From positions 12,854-52,079 of the forward strand of contig PLHK01000141.1 of the NCBI GenBank assembly GCA_003139955.1: DNA of 39,226 nt, written 5' to 3'. Positions 688-39,226 of this stretch are shown here, piece by piece. Position numbers and translations under genes: made by a program. The notes beneath the pieces are model-generated. The model had not been told where the DNA came from, searched no databases, and worked only from the letters and a program-made list of their open reading frames with translations. Position 1 is the stretch's first letter, and each line of letters opens with the position of its first letter. This stretch comes from Limisphaerales bacterium (lineage in GTDB: Bacteria > Verrucomicrobiota > Verrucomicrobiia > Limisphaerales > UBA11358).

Positions 688-2085
688 ATGAGCATATTTT
701 TTGCACCTAGACGCATTGCTGGAAAAATCCGCAATCAAGCCCGGCTGCTACTCAAGGCATCATCAACTCTAAAGGCAAAAAATGTGCTGTGGCAGCGTAG
801 GCTACTGCATGACCGGACATCCCGTTTTTTAGCGCAAAGTGATCAGTGGAAACCGGAGACAATGGTAGCATGGCAACTCTGCCAGTTAAACGGCTTGCTC
901 CAGTACGCGCTGAAAAATTGTCCTGGCCATATGCGGAAACTAACGGCAGCGGGTTTCGACGGAAAGCTAGAACGATTGGAAGATCTCGGCATGCTTCCTT
1001 TCTTTACAAAGAATGAACTGCGTGCGCAGGGTGACGAATTTACAGCCACTAATTTCCCGTCGAATTCCCTCCGGGCAATTACTTCAGGTGGCACCACTGG
1101 CACACCGACGCGCTTCATGGTAGAAGCAAAAACTTACGATGCGCTTTTCGATGCTTGGCGGCACACGATGTGGCGTCGGGCGGGCTATATTCCCGGCAAA
1201 CGTTGCCTGGATATCACCTGGGCATTTACCGACGGTAGGCCGCTTATTAATTCGGACAAAAAAAATCATGTTTATCTCTCTATCCATGACTTAGATTATG
1301 GAACGCTTAGCACATGGTGGCAGCGCGTCAAGGCTTTTCAACCGGAGTTTATAATCGGATTTCCATCAACGGCGACGGCGCTGGCCAAACTGCTGCCAGC
1401 GCTCGGGGCGTTAACTGAAGTGCGCGCACTGTTATTAGCCTCCGAAACATTGACGGCGGATCAGCGTGCGATTATAGCGGCGGCCTTTCCCCATGCGCGG
1501 ATCTTTCAATGGTATGGTATGTCGGAAATGGCGGGTTTTGCCTCAAACTGTGAATATTCCGATGCATTCCACCATTGGCCGCAATCTGGCATAATCGAAG
1601 TCATTGATGATGATGGTCGCCCAATTCAAACGGCAGGCCAATCTGGCGAGATTGTATTGACGGGATTTATCAATCAGGTGACGCCATTCATCCGTTATCG
1701 AACCGGCGACCGGGCAACTCTCGGAGACTATTGTGCAAAATGCGGTCGTATGCACAAATTGCTCACAAACATTGAGGGCCGAGTGGGAGATTTTCTGTTG
1801 GGCGAGCGAGGCCGAGTGGTGCCGATCTCGGCGCTTAATTTTCATGGCGACGAATTTCGCCATGTATTCGCGCATCAGTTTATCCAAGACGAACCGGGGC
1901 GTGTGTTGTTACGAATTGTGCCGAGACTAGGTTTCAATAACGGGGATCACTCTGCAATCAACCAACTGGTCAGTGGAATACTCGGTTCAGACATCACCTT
2001 CCGTATCGAACAAGTGGAGATGATTCCACGAACTCCGCGCGGCAAGCAGCCACTAATCATTCAGCGTTGTTCGCAAAACTCATGA
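688..2085 (+). CDS. CapK/PaaK-like adenylate-forming enzyme
   Basis: A 465-residue protein of the phenylacetate-CoA ligase (PaaK)/CapK superfamily of ATP-dependent adenylate-forming enzymes. The phosphate-binding loop ITSGGTTGTPTRF is at about residues 131-143, an A5-like YGMSE at 276-280, and the ribose-binding motif YRTGD at 337-341. It is followed by a CxxC pair (C349, C352) and a GRVGDFL hinge at about 364-370, all typical of this family. Members of this branch recur in capsule and exopolysaccharide clusters, where they are thought to activate a carboxylic acid, perhaps for acyl or amide decoration of sugars; the substrate is not known. The N-terminal ~60 residues are basic and partly hydrophobic, and no signal peptide is clear. 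The ATG at 688 has no obvious Shine-Dalgarno. The gene precedes a pyruvyl transferase, which supports a role in modifying the polysaccharide. Confidence 0.85.
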   Translation: MSIFFAPRRIAGKIRNQARLLLKASSTLKAKNVLWQRRLLHDRTSRFLAQSDQWKPETMVAWQLCQLNGLLQYALKNCPGHMRKLTAAGFDGKLERLEDLGMLPFFTKNELRAQGDEFTATNFPSNSLRAITSGGTTGTPTRFMVEAKTYDALFDAWRHTMWRRAGYIPGKRCLDITWAFTDGRPLINSDKKNHVYLSIHDLDYGTLSTWWQRVKAFQPEFIIGFPSTATALAKLLPALGALTEVRALLLASETLTADQRAIIAAAFPHARIFQWYGMSEMAGFASNCEYSDAFHHWPQSGIIEVIDDDGRPIQTAGQSGEIVLTGFINQVTPFIRYRTGDRATLGDYCAKCGRMHKLLTNIEGRVGDFLLGERGRVVPISALNFHGDEFRHVFAHQFIQDEPGRVLLRIVPRLGFNNGDHSAINQLVSGILGSDITFRIEQVEMIPRTPRGKQPLIIQRCSQNS

Positions 2086-29210: not shown

Positions 29211-30812
29211 ATGGACAAGCCTGAAACAATCTCCGCCGCGCCCGAAAGAAACCGCGTCATCTTGAAATGGGCGTTGCTGATTTTACCATTGGGCTATCTG
29301 TGGTTTCGCCTGATTGACGATCTGCGTTTGGAATGGGCGACGAATCCGCAGTATAGCTACGGCCTCGTGGTGCCATTGCTGGTGATCGGATTGCTGCTGC
29401 GGCGCTGGCAGCACGCCAAAAATCAAAATTGTTTTTCGGTGGCGGAAAATCCGTGGCTGGCCGTGTGGTTTTGCGGCGGCCTCGCGTTTCTTTATCTGCC
29501 GACGCGGCTGGTTGAAGAAGCCACGCCCGAGTGGCGACCGGTGCAATGGCTGCTGGCGGTTGAAATCGTCGGCCTGACCCTTTACGTTGTTTATCTCGCG
29601 GGCGGAAAAGGCTGGCTGCGGCAATTGGCGTTTCCAATTTTATTTTTCCTGGTGGCAGTTCCGTGGCCGACGCCCATCGAGGCGCCGATCATCCAGGGCT
29701 TGAGCCGCATGAACGCCGCGCTGGTCGTGGAAGTGCTCGGCTTTCTGGACGTGCCCGCGATCCAACACGGTAACGTAATCGAAGTCAGCACGGGCATGGT
29801 CGGCATCAACGACGCGTGCAGCGGCATCCGTTCGTTCCAGTCCAGCCTGATGATCTCGCTTTTCCTCGGCGAATTTTATCTGTTCAACTGGCGGCGGCGG
29901 CTGGCGCTGGTTCCCATCGGCTTCGCGCTGGCGATGTTTCTGAATCTGTGCCGCGCCTCGTTGCTCACCTGGATCGCGGCGAAAAAAGGCGTCGGTGCGA
30001 TTGCCGAATACCACGACGAGGCCGGGCTGACCATTTTGTTCGTTTGCACGACGTTGCTGTGGGGCGCGGCGTGGCTGCTGAACTGCCGAAAGGTTCCAGA
30101 TGGAATCCAAAAAATTGCGCCATCAGGCAATGTTCCGCCGTCCGTGGCCGACCGCAAAAAAATCCACCGCCGGCGGAATCGCCTTGGCCTCATTTTGATC
30201 GTATGGCTGGTGGTGGTCGAAAGCGGTGTGGAACTTTGGTATCAGATTCGGGAAGCGCATTTGCAACCCGGCCCAAGCTGGTCGGTGAATTTCCCCGAGG
30301 CCGATCCGACCTACAAAGATTTGCCGCTGACCACGGAAGAACACGAGCTGCTGCGTTTCGATCAAGGCCAGCAGGGACAATGGCAGGAAGCCGATGGCAC
30401 GACTTGGCAGGTTTATTATTTCAACTGGTTGCCCGGTCGCGTGGCCGGTTACCTGGCCAAACGCCACACGCCGGACATTTGCATCACGGCCAGCGGTTTC
30501 AAGATGACCGCCGGGCCGGAACTGACCGTGCTCGAGGTGAACGGCGTGGAATTGCCGATGCGCCACTACATTTTCGACAGCTCCAGCGGCCCGCTGCAAG
30601 TTTATCAATGTCATTGGGAAGCCGGCCTCGGAAAAGAGAATTACACGGCGGACGAATCGGCGCGCTACAATCTCATCCGCGGCATCTGGGCCGGACGCGG
30701 CAACAAGGGGCAAAAAGTTTTGGAGATCATCATCACCGGCTACAACGATTCCGCACTGGCGCAACAGGCGTTGGTGCGCGAGTTGCCCAAGTTGATCAAG
30801 GTGGAAAATTAG
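29211..30812 (+). CDS. xrt: Exosortase fused to an EpsI-like C-terminal domain
   Basis: About 533 residues. The N-terminal ~320 residues form the exosortase membrane domain with about eight hydrophobic segments and the catalytic set seen in the family: C203 in GINDACSGIRS, R248 in FLNLCRASLLTW, and H268 in EYHDEAGLT. Exosortases cut and probably transfer proteins carrying PEP-CTERM tails at the inner membrane. After a basic linker (DRKKIHRRRNR) and one more transmembrane segment, the last ~200 residues match the EpsI-type domain, including a KRHTPDICITASGF segment like the H-PE-C--A-G motif of EpsI. EpsI is often a separate gene in exopolysaccharide loci; here it is one polypeptide. The ATG at 29211 is the first sensible start; upstream in-frame codons overlap the previous gene. 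The exact subclass (XrtA-like or other) I cannot assign. Confidence 0.93.
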   Translation: MDKPETISAAPERNRVILKWALLILPLGYLWFRLIDDLRLEWATNPQYSYGLVVPLLVIGLLLRRWQHAKNQNCFSVAENPWLAVWFCGGLAFLYLPTRLVEEATPEWRPVQWLLAVEIVGLTLYVVYLAGGKGWLRQLAFPILFFLVAVPWPTPIEAPIIQGLSRMNAALVVEVLGFLDVPAIQHGNVIEVSTGMVGINDACSGIRSFQSSLMISLFLGEFYLFNWRRRLALVPIGFALAMFLNLCRASLLTWIAAKKGVGAIAEYHDEAGLTILFVCTTLLWGAAWLLNCRKVPDGIQKIAPSGNVPPSVADRKKIHRRRNRLGLILIVWLVVVESGVELWYQIREAHLQPGPSWSVNFPEADPTYKDLPLTTEEHELLRFDQGQQGQWQEADGTTWQVYYFNWLPGRVAGYLAKRHTPDICITASGFKMTAGPELTVLEVNGVELPMRHYIFDSSSGPLQVYQCHWEAGLGKENYTADESARYNLIRGIWAGRGNKGQKVLEIIITGYNDSALAQQALVRELPKLIKVEN

Positions 30813-32078: not shown

Positions 32079-33956
32079 ATGTTTGGTGATTTAGACAAGT
32101 ATATCCTCGTTTTTTTGGTTGGTTTGACCGTGACTTACCTGCTCACGCCGGTTGTGCGCAGCGTGGCCATCCGGTTTGGCGTCGTGGATTTGCCGGACGC
32201 CCGGCGTCCGCACAAACGCCCGACTGCGCGTGGCGGCGGCGTAGCAGTGGTCTTGGGCGTGCAGGTCGCGTGTCTGGTGGCGGTTTTGTTTCCGTGGCCT
32301 AAAGTGACCGGGGCGCTTGATTTCGGCTGGTGGGAAAAATTTGCCTTGGCCTCGCTGGTTTTGCTGGTGGTGGGCGTCGTTGATGACGTGCGCGGCATGA
32401 AGCCGTGGATCAAACTTGGTGGACAAGTTGCCGCCGCCTTGTTGATGTGGTTTTCAGGAACGCATTTCGGTCAGTTGCTGGGCCACGATTTGCCCGCACC
32501 GGTGGATTGCGCGCTGGTGGTGATCTGGCTGGTGGCCATCATCAATGCGTTCAATCTGATTGACGGGCTGGACGGACTGGCGTCGGGACTGGCGATCATT
32601 TCTGCCGTCGGCTTGTCCGGCATTTTGATCATGCAAAAGGCTCCCGGCGAAGTCTTGCTGCTGCTCGGTTTCATTGGCGCTTGCTTGGGATTTTTGCGCT
32701 ACAACTTTCATCCGGCGACGGTTTTTCTCGGCGATACGGGAAGCATGTTCATCGGTTTCACGCTGGGAGTGGTCTCGCTGCAAACCTTCAACAAAAATAC
32801 GTTCCTGATTTCCCTGACGATTCCCATCATGGTATTGGGTGTGCCGATTTATGATGCGCTGCTGGCCATCTGGCGGCGGACGGTGCGCTCGTGGATGAAC
32901 GACGGCAAAAGTCCCGGCGTGAAGCGCGGCATCATGCAGCCGGACGTGGAACATCTGCATCATCGCTTAAGTAAATCCGGCTTGAGCACGCAGCGGGTGG
33001 CGACGTTTCTTTACATCGTCAATGGCGGGCTGGTGACAGTGGGTTTGTTGATCATGCTTTTTCAGTCGCACGCGGCGGGAATTTTTTTGATCGCGCTGCT
33101 CGCCGGTGTGTATGTGTTGATGCGGCAGCTCGCCGTCATTGAACTGCGCGAAACGGGCCGGGCGCTGTTGATGGGATTGAAACGGCCAACGCACTCCACT
33201 TTCAAAGCCCTGGCCTATCCGGTCTGGGATATGACCTGGCTGGCCGGTTCGCTGGCCTTGATCATGTGGTTCATCGAGGAACAGCGGGTGGATTTCTGGC
33301 ACACTTGGTTCATGGATCTGCCGGTCTGGGTGACGCCGACTTTTTCGTTGCTCGCGCTCTCGCGCACTTATGTGACGCACTGGCAGCGGGCGCGGCTGCG
33401 CGATGTGCTGATGGTTTTGTTTTGGCTGCAGACGGGAATTATTTTCAGCCTTGGCCTCGCGCTCGTCATTGATCCGCTGGCTGCTGGTAAATGGGTGCTC
33501 CGCGCGGTTTTAGTTGCGGGCATCAGCCATCCCGTGATCATCAGTTCGCGCTTGGTTTATCGTTGCATTGAAGAACTGGTGTTTTGGCTCAAGCGTCATG
33601 GCGATGCGGCAGTGGAGACGGAACGAGTGCTGCTTTACGGGGCGGGCATCCGGGCGCAGTTGTTTTTGAAGGATCGCGCGATGAAAACTTCCCGCCATCC
33701 CGACACGCGGCAGATTTTGGGATTTATTGATGATGAAAAGGCTTTGTATTTTCAATGGGTCTACGGCTTTCCCGTGCTGGGCGGACTCAAGGAACTGCCG
33801 CGATTGATTGAACGCCGCAAGATCAACCGGGTCATCATTGTCTCGGAACTCGTGCCCGAAAGCCGCGTCGCCATTCAGGAAATCGCGGCGCAGAATAAAA
33901 TCAAATTGAGCGAGTGGGAGCCCGAAGAGCATGAGATTGTTTTGCCGGCGGCTTGA
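32079..33956 (+). CDS. WecA-like undecaprenyl-phosphate sugar-1-phosphate transferase with extra C-terminal nucleotide-binding module
   Basis: A 625-residue membrane protein. Residues 1 to ~340 are a MraY/WecA-family transferase: DLPDARRPHKRPTARGGG (38-54), the Mg-binding VDDVRG (101-106), NAFNLIDGLDGLASG (156-170), FLGDTGS (217-222) and EHLHHRL (291-297). This enzyme would start the repeat unit by placing a HexNAc-1-phosphate on undecaprenyl phosphate. About residues 380-510 hold more transmembrane segments, and residues 513-625 form a Rossmann-like domain (ERVLLYGAGIRAQLF, ILGFIDDE, FPVLGGLKELPRLI, RVIIVSE). That second half resembles the membrane-plus-CoA_binding_3 part of PglF/WbpM or WbaP, without a catalytic dehydratase or transferase after it. 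The ATG at 32079 lies 33 bp after the previous stop. The initiating role is strong; the purpose of the extra half is unknown. Confidence 0.9.
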   Translation: MFGDLDKYILVFLVGLTVTYLLTPVVRSVAIRFGVVDLPDARRPHKRPTARGGGVAVVLGVQVACLVAVLFPWPKVTGALDFGWWEKFALASLVLLVVGVVDDVRGMKPWIKLGGQVAAALLMWFSGTHFGQLLGHDLPAPVDCALVVIWLVAIINAFNLIDGLDGLASGLAIISAVGLSGILIMQKAPGEVLLLLGFIGACLGFLRYNFHPATVFLGDTGSMFIGFTLGVVSLQTFNKNTFLISLTIPIMVLGVPIYDALLAIWRRTVRSWMNDGKSPGVKRGIMQPDVEHLHHRLSKSGLSTQRVATFLYIVNGGLVTVGLLIMLFQSHAAGIFLIALLAGVYVLMRQLAVIELRETGRALLMGLKRPTHSTFKALAYPVWDMTWLAGSLALIMWFIEEQRVDFWHTWFMDLPVWVTPTFSLLALSRTYVTHWQRARLRDVLMVLFWLQTGIIFSLGLALVIDPLAAGKWVLRAVLVAGISHPVIISSRLVYRCIEELVFWLKRHGDAAVETERVLLYGAGIRAQLFLKDRAMKTSRHPDTRQILGFIDDEKALYFQWVYGFPVLGGLKELPRLIERRKINRVIIVSELVPESRVAIQEIAAQNKIKLSEWEPEEHEIVLPAA

Positions 33957-34003
33957 AGCTATTCAAACAAAGTTTTTTCCGATACCATCTCGATCAGATA
34001 ATT

Positions 34004-35671
34004 ATGCGCAAGCCAATCGTCATCATTTCCTGTTGCATCGCCGCCTTGTTGGTGGGTTACAGCGGCTATCGGAGCTATCAAGTCTGGAAGCAAAGCCACT
34101 TGCTCACCATGGCCAGGTCATTTGCCGCCCGGTCTGACGCGGCCAATGAAGCGCTCTGTTTGCAACAGGCTTTGCACTTGAACCCCCAAAATGTGGATGC
34201 CTGCCGCATTATGGCGGATCTGGCGGACACGACCCACTCTGATGGCGCGCTGTTTTGGCGGGAGCGGGTCTTAAAACTGAATCCGAAATCGCTGCCGGAT
34301 CGTTTGGCACTGACGCAGACCGCCCTGTCGGTGAGTGATTATCTCACGGCTTCCAATGCCTTGGCGGGCGTGGATGCCGACGGTCAGAAGACCGCTTTGT
34401 ATCAAAATGTCGCCGGCGTCGTCGCTGCGAGCGTCGGTCGGCTGGCGGAAGCGGAACTGCATTTTACCGAAGCCGTCCGGCTTGAGCCGGACAATCCCAC
34501 GCCACAATTAAATTTGGCGGTGTTGCTCCTGCACAGTTCCAACACGCTGGAAGTCGCCGAGGCACGCACCAGTTTGCGGCAGATCAGCCAGAGCTCGACC
34601 AATCTTGAAGTCCGCAGTCAGGCGCAACGCGAACTGGTCATGGATGCCTTGCACCGGGATGATATCCACACCGCCTTGGTGTTCGCCGAGGAATTGGCGC
34701 AGCCGACGAACGCGATTTTTTCCGACCGGCTTTTGCGCCTCGAAACCCTGCTGCAAGCCAAAAGTCCGGAATACCGGCCAGTGCTGGCCGCCTACGAACG
34801 TGAAGCGGCAATTTCTCCGACGAAATTATCGGACATGGCCGCCTGGCTGATGCGGAGAGCCACGCCGACCGAGGCATTGTCGTGGTTGCAAAGCCTGCCG
34901 CCGTCAGTTCAAACGAATCAGCCGGCCGCGTTTCTCGTCGCCCAATGTCTGTTGCAGTTGTGCGACTGGCATGGATTGCAGTCCACCATCCAGAATGAAA
35001 ACTGGAACGATCTTGAATTCGTCCGCCATATGTTTTTGGCCCGCACCCTGCGCGAACAGGGTTTGACGGAAGCCTCGGCGGACGAATGGGTCGTGGCGTT
35101 GAAATTCACCAGCGACCAGAAAGGCCCTTTGGTCTCGCTTTTTCAACTGGCCGCCGGTTGGAACTGGAACAGCGAGGCGGAACAGACACTTTGGATCGTG
35201 GTGAACAAATATCCGGAAGAGCAGTGGGCACCGCCGGCCTTGACGCACGCCTTGATTGCGGGCGGGCGGACGCGGCCATTGTTGGAATTATTCGGCATCA
35301 TGGCCAAGCGGTTTCCGTCTGACATTGAAATGAAAAATAATGTGGCCTTTGTCGCCCTGCTTCTGAATGCGCAGGAGCTTGACCCGTATGACCTGGCCAG
35401 CGAGGTGTATCAAAAAGCGCCGCAAAATCCTTCCTATGCCGCGACCTATGCCTTTTCGCTTTATTTACAGGGAAAATACTCGGAAGCGCTCAAAGTCATG
35501 CAGCAAATCGCCCCGAAAGAATTGCAGAACCCTTCGGTCGCCGGCTATTACGGTATCATTCTGAAAGCCAATGGCAATCCTGAAAGCGCCAGAGCTTATT
35601 TGAAACTCACGGCCAAGGCTCAATTGCTGCCTGAGGAACAAGCTCTTTTTCAGCAGGCCATGATGAATTGA
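34004..35671 (+). CDS. Membrane-anchored TPR-repeat protein of the exosortase locus
   Basis: About 555 residues. The N-terminus MRKPIVIISCCIAALLVGYS is a single hydrophobic anchor, followed by tetratricopeptide-like helices: AARSDAANEALCLQQALHLN, LAEAELHFTEAVRLEPDNPT, and near the C-terminus YLQGKYSEALKVMQQIAPKE and AKAQLLPEEQALFQQAM. Most of the protein should lie in the periplasm. TPR proteins are frequent in exosortase and exopolysaccharide clusters, where they are thought to scaffold secretion complexes. A TTG at 33953 that overlaps the previous stop (TTGA) would add 17 residues; I prefer the ATG because the anchor starts there, but the TTG is possible. It is the last gene before the operon terminator. 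An SCC pair at residues 9-11 recalls a lipobox, but the hydrophobic run before it is too short for a lipoprotein signal. Confidence 0.75.
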   Translation: MRKPIVIISCCIAALLVGYSGYRSYQVWKQSHLLTMARSFAARSDAANEALCLQQALHLNPQNVDACRIMADLADTTHSDGALFWRERVLKLNPKSLPDRLALTQTALSVSDYLTASNALAGVDADGQKTALYQNVAGVVAASVGRLAEAELHFTEAVRLEPDNPTPQLNLAVLLLHSSNTLEVAEARTSLRQISQSSTNLEVRSQAQRELVMDALHRDDIHTALVFAEELAQPTNAIFSDRLLRLETLLQAKSPEYRPVLAAYEREAAISPTKLSDMAAWLMRRATPTEALSWLQSLPPSVQTNQPAAFLVAQCLLQLCDWHGLQSTIQNENWNDLEFVRHMFLARTLREQGLTEASADEWVVALKFTSDQKGPLVSLFQLAAGWNWNSEAEQTLWIVVNKYPEEQWAPPALTHALIAGGRTRPLLELFGIMAKRFPSDIEMKNNVAFVALLLNAQELDPYDLASEVYQKAPQNPSYAATYAFSLYLQGKYSEALKVMQQIAPKELQNPSVAGYYGIILKANGNPESARAYLKLTAKAQLLPEEQALFQQAMMN

Positions 35672-35880: not shown

Positions 35881-35915
35881 AAAAAAACAGGCCGGTCAAA
35901 TTAATGACCGGCCTG
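35881..35915 (-). terminator. Intrinsic terminator of the minus-strand PEP-CTERM gene
   Basis: A perfect 11-bp stem CAGGCCGGTCA (35888-35898) with TGACCGGCCTG (35905-35915), flanked on the left by seven A residues, which read as a T tract on the minus strand. It sits about 27 bp beyond the stop of the minus-strand gene. The stem shares the CAGGCYGGTCAAA core with the plus-strand terminator nearby. Confidence 0.9.
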
Positions 35916-35941
35916 CGTTGTGAATATTTATGAAATGCCGA

Positions 35942-36598
35942 TTAGGACATTTTGTTTTTGCGCAGGATGCGAACGGTGCTCACACCGAACGGCAACAGCA
36001 ACAACGCACCGGCAACCACCGTGCTGGGTTCGGGCACCGCAGCAGTGAAACCCAACTGGGGTTGGGCATAGCCGCCGGGACCGGTCAAGTTTATGGCGTA
36101 AACAACACCACCCGCAACACCCGTGTCAGCTCCTGTGATGGTTGAATCATTCAAACCGAGGGCAGTTTCAGCCAAGGTAACAAATGTGTTGTCCGCGCCA
36201 AAATTTTGCCCTTGCAACCACCAGATCGCCGCCTGAAGCGCATTGGCTGAAGCAGCACTGCCGTAGGTGTAGCCTGCCAGCGTGCCGAGTCTAAACTGGC
36301 TGTAAAGATAGGCCGTTCCGATGGCAATCGAAGTGCCGCTGGGCTCAATGGTGCTGCTCGTTGAGTAATTATATGTAGTTCCGGGATGAAACAAAACATT
36401 TTCGGCCAAGCAGAACGTATCAAACGTTCCAAGTCCGCCGGTTGTCACCGCCGTGAAGGCGCCACCGCTGTTGGCGTTGCCGTAATCTTCAGTGAGGGTG
36501 ATGGTGCCAATGGTTGCCAGCGCATTTGATGCAGTCAATACGGTTGCAACGCCAAGCAGCGCGCAACAGGTTTTTATAGCTTTTATTTTCATTTTCAT
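35942..36598 (-). CDS. PEP-CTERM surface protein with thioester-domain (TED)-like motifs
   Basis: A 218-residue secreted protein. The signal peptide (residues 1-28, cleavage after NALA) is followed by a ~155-residue domain and a complete PEP-CTERM tail: VPEPST at 188-193, a hydrophobic stretch VVAGALLLLPFGVSTV, and a basic end RILRKNK. The tail is the recognition signal for exosortase, and the exosortase gene lies 5 kb away in the same cluster. The domain has TFCLAEN with C63 and ALQAAIWWLQG with Q122, the two places where the streptococcal-type thioester domain has Cys and Gln (patterns FC-hydrophobic and hydrophobic-Q-x-x-hydrophobic-W), and AYLYSQFRLGTLAGY between them. If formed, a Cys63-Gln122 thioester would allow covalent binding to amines or other nucleophiles. 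The start is ATG at 36598 (MKMK), with AAAAGG about 12 bases upstream. The PEP-CTERM call is certain; the thioester is inferred from motifs. Confidence 0.93.
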   Translation of the reverse strand: MKMKIKAIKTCCALLGVATVLTASNALATIGTITLTEDYGNANSGGAFTAVTTGGLGTFDTFCLAENVLFHPGTTYNYSTSSTIEPSGTSIAIGTAYLYSQFRLGTLAGYTYGSAASANALQAAIWWLQGQNFGADNTFVTLAETALGLNDSTITGADTGVAGGVVYAINLTGPGGYAQPQLGFTAAVPEPSTVVAGALLLLPFGVSTVRILRKNKMS

Positions 36599-36686
36599 TT
36601 TTGTTTTTTACCTTTTGTTAAAGATTAATTCTGGCTCGACGTCCAAGCCACAATCCGTCATTCAAACATTTGGTTGGGTGTTGTTC

Positions 36687-37021: not shown

Positions 37022-39226
37022 ATGAAAGAAACCAACAAAATTGCCAGCGCATCATCGCCTGAATCTTTGAAGGGTGACTTGGTTTCATTGACAGAATCTG
37101 CGCGCCAACCCCGTTTCTCGAGTCAGGACGTGGCGGTTAAATTTTCCGATAGGGAATGTGTGCATGAGCTGATCGAGGCGCAGGTGGTGCGGAGCCCTTT
37201 GGCGATCGCGGTGGTTCATGGGGATGAGGAGTTGAGCTACCGGGAGTTGGAAGAGCGAGCGAATGCGGTGGCGGAACGATTGCGGCGAGTGGGGGTTGGG
37301 CCGGATAAATTGGTGGGGATATATGTGGAGCGGTCACTGGCGATGGTGGTGGGGATGCTGGGCGTGCTGAAGGCTGGCGGGGCGTATGTGCCGCTGGATC
37401 CGAAGTATCCGGCGGAGCGTCTGGGGTTCATGCTGGGGGACGCGCAGCCGGTGGCGGTGGTGACGCAGCGCAGCCTGCGGGAGCAGTTGCCGGCGCATGG
37501 GGCGCAGGTGGTGTGTGTGGATGATGAGGCAGAAGCGGATGCGGGTTCACCGCCGGTGGTCGGGCGGCGGGCAGAGGCGCATCATCTGGCGTATGTGATT
37601 TACACCTCGGGTTCAACAGGTAAGCCCAAGGGCGTGGGGATTGAGCACCGCAACGCGGTGAATTTCATTTATTGGGCGCGGAGTGTGTTCAGCGACGCGG
37701 AGCTGGCGGGGGTGCTGGCGGCGACCTCGATCTGTTTTGACCTGTCGGTGTTTGAGCTTTTCGTCACGTTGAGCTGGGGCGGCCAAGTGATTTTGGCGGA
37801 TAACGCCCTAGAGTTGCCGCGTCTGGCGGCCAGAGCGGAGGTTACGCTGATCAACACCGTGCCCTCGGCGATGGCCGAGCTGGTGCGGAGCGGGGGCGTG
37901 CCGGCGGGGGTGCAGGTGGTGAACTTGGCGGGGGAACCGCTGGCGACGGCGCTGGTGGACCAGATTTACGGGCTGAAACACATCCGGAAAGTGCATGACC
38001 TCTACGGGCCGACGGAGACGACGACGTATTCGACGTTCACGCTGCGCCAGCCGGGGGCGAAGGCGACGATCGGGCGACCCTTGGCCAACACGCAGGTGTA
38101 TGTGCTGGACGAACACCGGCAACCGGTGCCGGTGGGGGTGGCGGGGGAACTTTACATCGGCGGGGCGGGCGTGGCGCGGGGTTATCTGAACCGGCCGGAA
38201 CTGACAGCGGAAAAGTTTTTAGCCGACCCGTTTGGTAAGGAACCGGACGGGCGAATCTACAAGACGGGTGACTTGGTGCGTTACCAGCCGGACGGTCAAC
38301 TGGAATTTATCGGGCGGATCGACCAGCAGGTGAAGATCCGGGGCTACCGGATTGAGCTGGGGGAGATCGAGGCAGTGCTGCAGCGACACCCGGCACTGCG
38401 CGAAGCGGTGGTGGTGGCGCGGGCGAATGCGGCGGGCGAAAAAGAACTGGTGGCCTACCTGACCGGGTCGTCCGTGCCGGCGGTGGGAGAACTGCGGGCA
38501 CACCTGTTGAAAACCCTGCCCGACTACATGGTGCCGGTGGCGTTTGTCACCTTGAGCGCCTTGCCGCTGACACCCAACGGCAAGATTGACCGCCAGGCGC
38601 TGCCCGCGCCGGCGGGAGAGCGGTTTGCGCGGCTGACCGAAGCGCCGGCCACGGCGACGGAACAAAAGCTAGCGAAACTTTGGAGCGAACTGCTGGGGGT
38701 GGAAAAGATTGGGCGGCAGGACAACTATTTTGAACTGGGCGGGCATTCCCTGCTGGCGGTGCGGATGATCTTCCGGCTGCGGGACGAGTTCGGGGTGGAG
38801 CTGCCGGTCAAGGCGATTGCGGAACATCCGACCATCGCGGCGTTAAGTCTGGTGGTGGAGGCTGCCGGCCAGACGGCGGCGATTCGGCTGCGACCGGAAG
38901 CGGCAGGGGCGCGGCGCCAAGCCTCGTTCAGTCAGGAACAACTTTGGTTCCTAGATCAATTGGAACCGGGAAGCGCGGTGTATAACGTGCCGTTGAGCCT
39001 GCGGCTGCGCGGGCCGCTGGATCGGGGGGCTTTGGAGCAAAGTTTGAATCATCTGCTCCGGCGGCATGAAGTTTTGCGGACGACGTTTGTGGCGGAGCAG
39101 GGTGCACCGGTGCCGGTGGTGGCGGCGGAACTAAAACTGGAACTGCCGCCGGTTGATCTGACACACCTGCGGGAAACTGAACGGGAAAGTGAAGTGCAGC
39201 GGCGGATGCGGTCGGCCGCGGCGTTG
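37022..39226 (+). CDS. Nonribosomal peptide synthetase (A-PCP-C), 3' truncated
   Basis: The frame is open from ATG 37022 to the window edge (735 codons). An adenylation domain spans about residues 45-530: LKAGGAYVPLDP (A2), YTSGSTGKPKG at 194 (A3), FDLSVFEL with D240 (A4), DLYGPTETT at 326 (A5), YKTGDLVRY (A7), GRIDQQVKIRGYRIELGEIE (A8) and NGKIDR with K521 (A10). A peptidyl carrier domain follows, with LGGHSL and phosphopantetheine Ser576. A condensation domain starts about residue 634 (SFSQEQLWFLDQL, RHEVLRTTF) and is cut by the edge. A start with A-PCP and no leading C domain suggests an initiation module. The ten specificity residues I align (D240, L241, F244, N278, N301, A303, L327, T335, Y336, K521) give DLFNNALTYK, which I recall as an alanine code. 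Codon use leans on GTG and GGG more than the polysaccharide genes. The Shine-Dalgarno is weak. Confidence 0.96.
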   Translation, partial: MKETNKIASASSPESLKGDLVSLTESARQPRFSSQDVAVKFSDRECVHELIEAQVVRSPLAIAVVHGDEELSYRELEERANAVAERLRRVGVGPDKLVGIYVERSLAMVVGMLGVLKAGGAYVPLDPKYPAERLGFMLGDAQPVAVVTQRSLREQLPAHGAQVVCVDDEAEADAGSPPVVGRRAEAHHLAYVIYTSGSTGKPKGVGIEHRNAVNFIYWARSVFSDAELAGVLAATSICFDLSVFELFVTLSWGGQVILADNALELPRLAARAEVTLINTVPSAMAELVRSGGVPAGVQVVNLAGEPLATALVDQIYGLKHIRKVHDLYGPTETTTYSTFTLRQPGAKATIGRPLANTQVYVLDEHRQPVPVGVAGELYIGGAGVARGYLNRPELTAEKFLADPFGKEPDGRIYKTGDLVRYQPDGQLEFIGRIDQQVKIRGYRIELGEIEAVLQRHPALREAVVVARANAAGEKELVAYLTGSSVPAVGELRAHLLKTLPDYMVPVAFVTLSALPLTPNGKIDRQALPAPAGERFARLTEAPATATEQKLAKLWSELLGVEKIGRQDNYFELGGHSLLAVRMIFRLRDEFGVELPVKAIAEHPTIAALSLVVEAAGQTAAIRLRPEAAGARRQASFSQEQLWFLDQLEPGSAVYNVPLSLRLRGPLDRGALEQSLNHLLRRHEVLRTTFVAEQGAPVPVVAAELKLELPPVDLTHLRETERESEVQRRMRSAAAL

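Follow-up and report, generated by a model that had tools for sequence, protein, structure and literature searches.

Our analysis points to a new family of exosortase-sorted Gram-negative proteins that resemble thioester domains (TEDs) and probably contain a Cys63–Gln179 thioester that ties cell, protein or matrix covalently. The member studied here is encoded in a 39,226-nucleotide stretch of Limisphaerales (Verrucomicrobiota) DNA, hereafter the window. Some Gram-positive bacteria bond covalently to surfaces through "chemical harpoon" domains, and this small secreted protein is predicted to share their fold. Walden et al. placed TEDs exclusively in Gram-positives.

The coding sequence (35942..36598, reverse strand), assigned from its open reading frame and an 81-member family, specifies a PEP-CTERM protein of 218 residues. 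Residues 1–28 (36515..36598, reverse strand) form a signal peptide with a basic start, a hydrophobic core and a terminal ALA, after which we infer cleavage; in the homologue comparison, the Ala28 at its end is 84% conserved. The mature TED-like domain follows (residues 29–187, about 159 residues; 36038..36514, reverse strand), as delimited by an AlphaFold model and a fold search of the PDB, and then a C-terminal sorting tail, VPEPSTVVAGALLLLPFGVSTVRILRKNKMS (35945..36037, reverse strand). We found no other Pfam domain in the protein, which comprises a single domain and its VPEP tail, and neither an LPXTG anchor nor isopeptide or ester stalk domains are present in it. We confirmed the open reading frame, Cys63 (DTFCLAEN), Gln122 (ALQAAIWWLQG), the VPEP...RILRK tail and the AYLYSQFRLGTLAGY segment as given in the initial annotation.

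The surroundings of the gene indicate how it may be expressed. A strong intrinsic terminator with a 12-pair stem and a T run lies 3' of it (35887..35916, reverse strand), so the gene is probably transcribed alone. The 19-bp near-palindrome TGGCTTGGACGTCGAGCCA (36632..36650, reverse strand), 33 nucleotides upstream of the ATG, is conserved in relatives: it is identical in L048 and has one mismatch in L049, a Limisphaerales genome with the isolate name "palsa". Elsewhere among the loci examined it was not found, bar one match with four mismatches, and its chance occurrence is 0.02 per window at three or fewer mismatches. This element is a putative operator or 5' UTR hairpin. No sigma-54 promoter site, such as PepA (see below) has, was found upstream of the TED-like gene.

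The gene also has a conserved genomic setting. It converges with a gene for a PrsT-like TPR protein (33953..35671, forward strand), which matches TPR models of Pfam and, below the cut-off, TIGR02917 (E = 1.1e-17). That gene is preceded by genes for a WecA-type transferase, a WcaI-type glycosyltransferase and an exosortase (EpsH) with a C-terminal extension (29211..30812, forward strand; PF09721, E = 6.6e-39), whose nearest subtype model, XrtD (TIGR04152), scores 113.6 bits against a cut-off of 400. On the other side lies a divergent nonribosomal peptide synthetase (NRPS) gene of A-PCP-C organization that runs off the window (37022..39226, forward strand). The order NRPS–TED–prsT–wecA–glycosyltransferase–exosortase is retained in L049 at 45–82% protein identity, the TED protein there being 49% identical to that of the window. 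Because the whole order is retained, the TED-like gene belongs to the exopolysaccharide (EPS) and exosortase locus and is no stray insertion.

Using the protein itself and alignments as queries, we detected relatives as follows: of the order, 24 of 245 genomes carry one or more; of a Phycisphaerae-centred class, 35 of 248; and of a Syntrophus-centred class, 4 of 46. A deltaproteobacterial MAG also has a member. The unnamed family is present in at least three Gram-negative phyla. In some genomes of the Phycisphaerae class, several TED-like paralogues lie side by side, a few kilobases apart at most (G820:C34, G829:C2, G885:C6 and C47, G665:C94).

Comparison of 81 distinct homologous proteins revealed a small set of nearly fixed residues. 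Position 63 (36410..36412, reverse strand), the predicted thioester Cys of a [YFL]C motif, is Cys in 80 of 81; Gln122 of the LQAAIW helix (36233..36235, reverse strand) is Gln in all 81; and Trp126 is Trp in 77. In a 60-row alignment with a mean column identity of only 17%, Cys63 and Gln122 are the sole invariant columns, so the two motifs singled out by the initial annotation are not chance matches. That annotation missed a third near-invariant residue, Gln179 of AQPQL (36062..36064, reverse strand), which matters more than Gln122. It lies just before the tail, in the position of a family motif QDxL, and is Gln in 79 of 81 homologues by column, with one more (L128) in which the Gln is shifted one residue earlier (AQNDML); the C-terminus of L119, counted as having Gln179, looks frameshifted and was left out as evidence. 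The C-terminal Gln is co-conserved with the Cys, as the ΦQζΦΦ motif of TEDs requires. Since exactly one Cys occurs in the mature region of 64 of the 81 members, the window protein included, an internal disulfide is impossible in these. The window copy departs somewhat from the family around both residues: the [YFL]C-hydrophobic-hydrophilic motif has the consensus FCLE in 50 of 81 members, whereas the window has FCLA, with a fourth residue that is not hydrophilic, and its AQPQL is a loose match to QDxL and ΦQζΦΦ. At the position of the TED motif TQxxΦW, which is not universal in TEDs, most members have Leu and not Thr before the Gln.

The only member without Cys63 is L008, from a Limisphaera MAG (1279–2016, forward strand), which has Ser at this position (FSLE) and Ala in place of Gln179 (KADML) and keeps LQEAIW and an intact open reading frame; L011, a sister protein encoded by that genome, has both Cys and Gln. 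This paired loss is a single case, and its probability would be about 1 in 81 if the two positions varied independently. The double variant is possibly a non-covalent derivative.

Structure prediction, which the initial annotation had proposed as a check, placed the domain among TEDs. An AlphaFold model built from a 16-sequence alignment (pLDDT 86.4, pTM 0.85) has four strands, three helices and two strands in that order. Searched with Foldseek against 350,542 PDB chains, it gave 152 matches, of which ranks 1–10 are all TEDs (CpTIE, 5A0G and 5A0D; Cpa, 4C0Z) with probabilities of 0.66–0.98, the others reaching at most 0.08. These ten matches represent two proteins in three entries, and their scores are moderate (for the best, E = 0.007, TM about 0.5 and rmsd 6 Å). 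For L057, the deltaproteobacterial member, a model (pLDDT 88.9, pTM 0.88) built from largely the same alignment likewise had the TED 5A0G as its top match (probability 0.96; next at most 0.07). The E-values of the fold matches are modest (0.007 and 0.012). The TED fold, a beta-barrel with an inserted three-helix bundle, is present in the predicted models with moderate scores, and TEDs alone stand above background, which supports assignment to the TED-type class at the level of modelled structure.

Sequence searches gave weaker signals, as expected since TEDs keep their fold at 12% identity (PMC4450167). The window protein matched nothing in Pfam, in NCBIfam or in direct searches of PDB sequences, and sequence-profile searches against the PDB returned chance matches only, for example insulin-degrading enzyme. 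The search against the Pfam TED profile suggested by the initial annotation thus came out negative, but it is a weak test: L022, a genuine Pfam TED used as a control, found no solved TED by sequence and nothing in plasmids, so such negatives are uninformative. A pLS20 stretch in which a class II TED was sought contained no TED-like frame. Sub-threshold matches to the Pfam TED model (PF08341) were obtained for 1 of 16 and 2 of 60 family members; with P0008 (see below) counted among the relatives, the E-values are 0.008–0.03, all short of the cut-off. We call the window protein TED-like on the grounds of its predicted fold and its residue pattern; by score it is no member of PF08341.

Further TED signals occur outside the family. 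P0008 (L016 1486–2280, reverse strand), likewise a PEP-CTERM protein from the genus, matches the Pfam TED model from the Cys to the helix motif (E = 0.008), has the motifs QSFCTDAG...LQLAIW...KSQGLIY and aligns with the family over FC...LQxAIW with a probability of 88.5%. Sub-threshold TED matches in 338 genomes of the phylum include L027, L034 and L036, which are exported and have FC, QxAxW and a late Gln, with PEP-CTERM tails on L027 and L036. Together with P0008, these form a second, divergent exported group, mostly with PEP-CTERM tails, that shares FC...QxA[IVL]W and the late Gln. TED-like substrates of exosortases are therefore likely to extend beyond the family described here.

The evidence for exosortase sorting lies in the tail. 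The VPEP...RILRK tail of the window protein falls below the cut-offs of the Pfam and NCBIfam PEP-CTERM models (TIGR02595/PF07589) and gave no match; it is a real sorting-type tail because many unrelated proteins from this genus have the same C-terminus. A signal peptide, a tail of motif, transmembrane segment and basic end that recurs on unrelated proteins, and an exosortase in the genome are all present. Only three copies of the tail were found in the genome of the window: those of the TED-like protein, of a Pro/Cys-rich 98-residue protein (L002) and of an ice-binding-domain protein (L003). A lineage-specific form, VPEPST..AGALLLLPFGVSTxRxLRK, occurs on unrelated proteins (L002, L006, L009, L010, L012, L013, L015–L019). 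The genome of the window contains three candidate exosortase/archaeosortase-type loci, one of them within the window itself. Across the family the tails differ (VPEP, VPDxG, VPxP) and the domain stays, as expected of an exosortase-sorted module; at E-values up to 1, 20 of 60 relatives match PEP-CTERM models and 18 of 60 match VPDSG-CTERM models. The TED-only fold matches, the near-invariant Cys63 and the relatives with sub-threshold TED matches support the proposal that a protein of exosortase type, encoded next to EPS genes, carries a TED-type domain.

The identity of the bond-forming glutamine separates our reading from the original one, in which the thioester joins Cys63 and Gln122. The complete invariance of Gln122 favours that pairing. 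In solved TEDs, however, the thioester joins the Cys of [YFL]CΦζ to the Gln of a C-terminal ΦQζΦΦ strand, and the Gln of TQxxΦW only hydrogen-bonds the Cys backbone, is not essential and is dispensable in Cpa (PMC4450167, PMC6194298). The known pairs are C109–Q261 in SfbI, C94–Q247 in PnTIE and C138–Q267 in CpTIE, with spacings of 152, 153 and 129 residues. The Cys63–Gln122 spacing is 59, far under this range, whereas that of Cys63–Gln179 is 116 and the family spans 111–151. By order and spacing, Gln122 is predicted to be the structural TQxxΦW Gln and Gln179 the equivalent of the bond-forming Gln. Moreover, Gln122 is still present in L008, where the Cys is lost. We rejected the Gln122 bond on the literature, the spacing and this natural double loss of Cys63 and Gln179, and regard it as very improbable.

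Other explanations accept the conserved residues and dispense with the bond. The most serious is a TED fold without a thioester, in which Cys63 and Gln179 are structural or binding residues of a non-covalent matrix or polysaccharide-binding protein. The bond is a prediction, the window copy departs from both flanking motifs, and the fold appears useful without the bond because L008 keeps an intact open reading frame and the fold residues after losing both Cys and Gln; a lone, near-invariant exported Cys that is kept and lost together with the bond Gln is hard to explain in this way, and we judge this alternative unlikely. It is less probable still that Cys63 forms an intermolecular disulfide, with a second copy or a partner, or is otherwise modified, the likeness to TEDs being one of shared fold only. 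Single-Cys exported proteins can dimerise, but the near-invariance of Gln179 and the paired loss would be left unexplained, and the Cys lies inside the domain at a strand end, with no lipobox. We give slightly less weight again to the idea that the protein is no TED at all and that an unrelated beta-helix-beta domain matched by chance; the best Foldseek E-value of 0.007, the TM of about 0.5 and the lack of a sequence-profile match to a solved TED would fit, yet in each of the two models nothing but TEDs stands out from background, and the same residues occur in the same order as the TED motifs. With moderate confidence, we favour an exported single-domain TED-like protein with a Cys63–Gln179 thioester that is sorted by an exosortase and fixed covalently to matrix or surface.

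If the Cys63–Gln179 reading is right, the protein would be exported by Sec, fold and form its internal thioester unaided; as in known TEDs, two residues of the central helix, Gln122 and Trp126, would brace the backbone of the Cys. The protein would stay anchored in the inner membrane by its VPEP tail until an exosortase, plausibly the one encoded 5 kb away, removed that tail and passed the protein on to the matrix or the outer surface. At this site the thioester could acylate a nearby nucleophile, either a protein lysine or an amino or hydroxyl group of the exopolysaccharide, and the resulting covalent fixing would tie the matrix to the cell or to other surfaces. The choice of exopolysaccharide as ligand, suggested by the initial annotation, is conjecture.

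Comparison with known systems places the family closest to Class I TEDs (PF08341; CpTIE 5A0G, Cpa 4C0Z, SfbI 5A0L), with which it shares the predicted strands–three-helix bundle–strands fold, the [YFL]C motif, the Q..ΦW helix, the C-terminal Gln strand, a Cys–Gln spacing in or near the range and an N-terminal secretion signal. Unlike these, the family is Gram-negative, falls below all Pfam cut-offs, has a PEP/VPDSG/VPxP-CTERM tail in place of LPXTG, lacks an isopeptide or ester stalk, has Leu for Thr in TQxxΦW and, in the window protein, has a domain of 159 residues compared with 172–209 in solved TED chains. PepA of Aquincola and Zoogloea also combines a signal peptide with a PEP-CTERM-type tail, and its gene adjoins prsT and EPS genes; in Aquincola, it moves EPS from the soluble to the cell-bound fraction, and the available part of that report describes no thioester or TED-like domain in PepA (PMC9850573). 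Complement and alpha-2-macroglobulin proteins, archaeal ones included (PMC8416519), share the internal Cys–Gln thioester chemistry proposed here, but their fold differs and their CxEQ motif sets Cys and Gln three residues apart rather than 116. NCBIfam exosortase-dependent surface families (for example, XDD4, NF045504) are likewise exosortase-sorted and occur in the same lineages, and none of the NCBIfam families matches the TED-like family. In the open-access literature, we found no thioester domains joined with PEP-CTERM or with Planctomycetes, although a description may exist elsewhere, and the accessible portions of open-access papers naming both thioester and exosortase do not describe the pairing, in line with the expectation of the initial annotation.

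Finally, our results have implications for what exosortase substrates do. Most PEP-CTERM/exosortase substrates lack a known biochemical activity, and a thioester would supply concrete chemistry, namely a 17-Da loss and amine capture. Covalent adhesion would also reach environmental diderms, given a large unnamed Gram-negative family that shares the predicted fold and the reactive pair. A broader and distinctly more tentative proposal is that internal thioesters are a common, unrecognised means by which Gram-negative exosortase-sorted proteins attach covalently to surfaces or to the exopolysaccharide of their own cells. If true, common thioester use would span Verrucomicrobiota, Planctomycetota and deltaproteobacterial lineages, and the family would be a diderm counterpart of Gram-positive TIE adhesins that explains what many PEP-CTERM proteins do.
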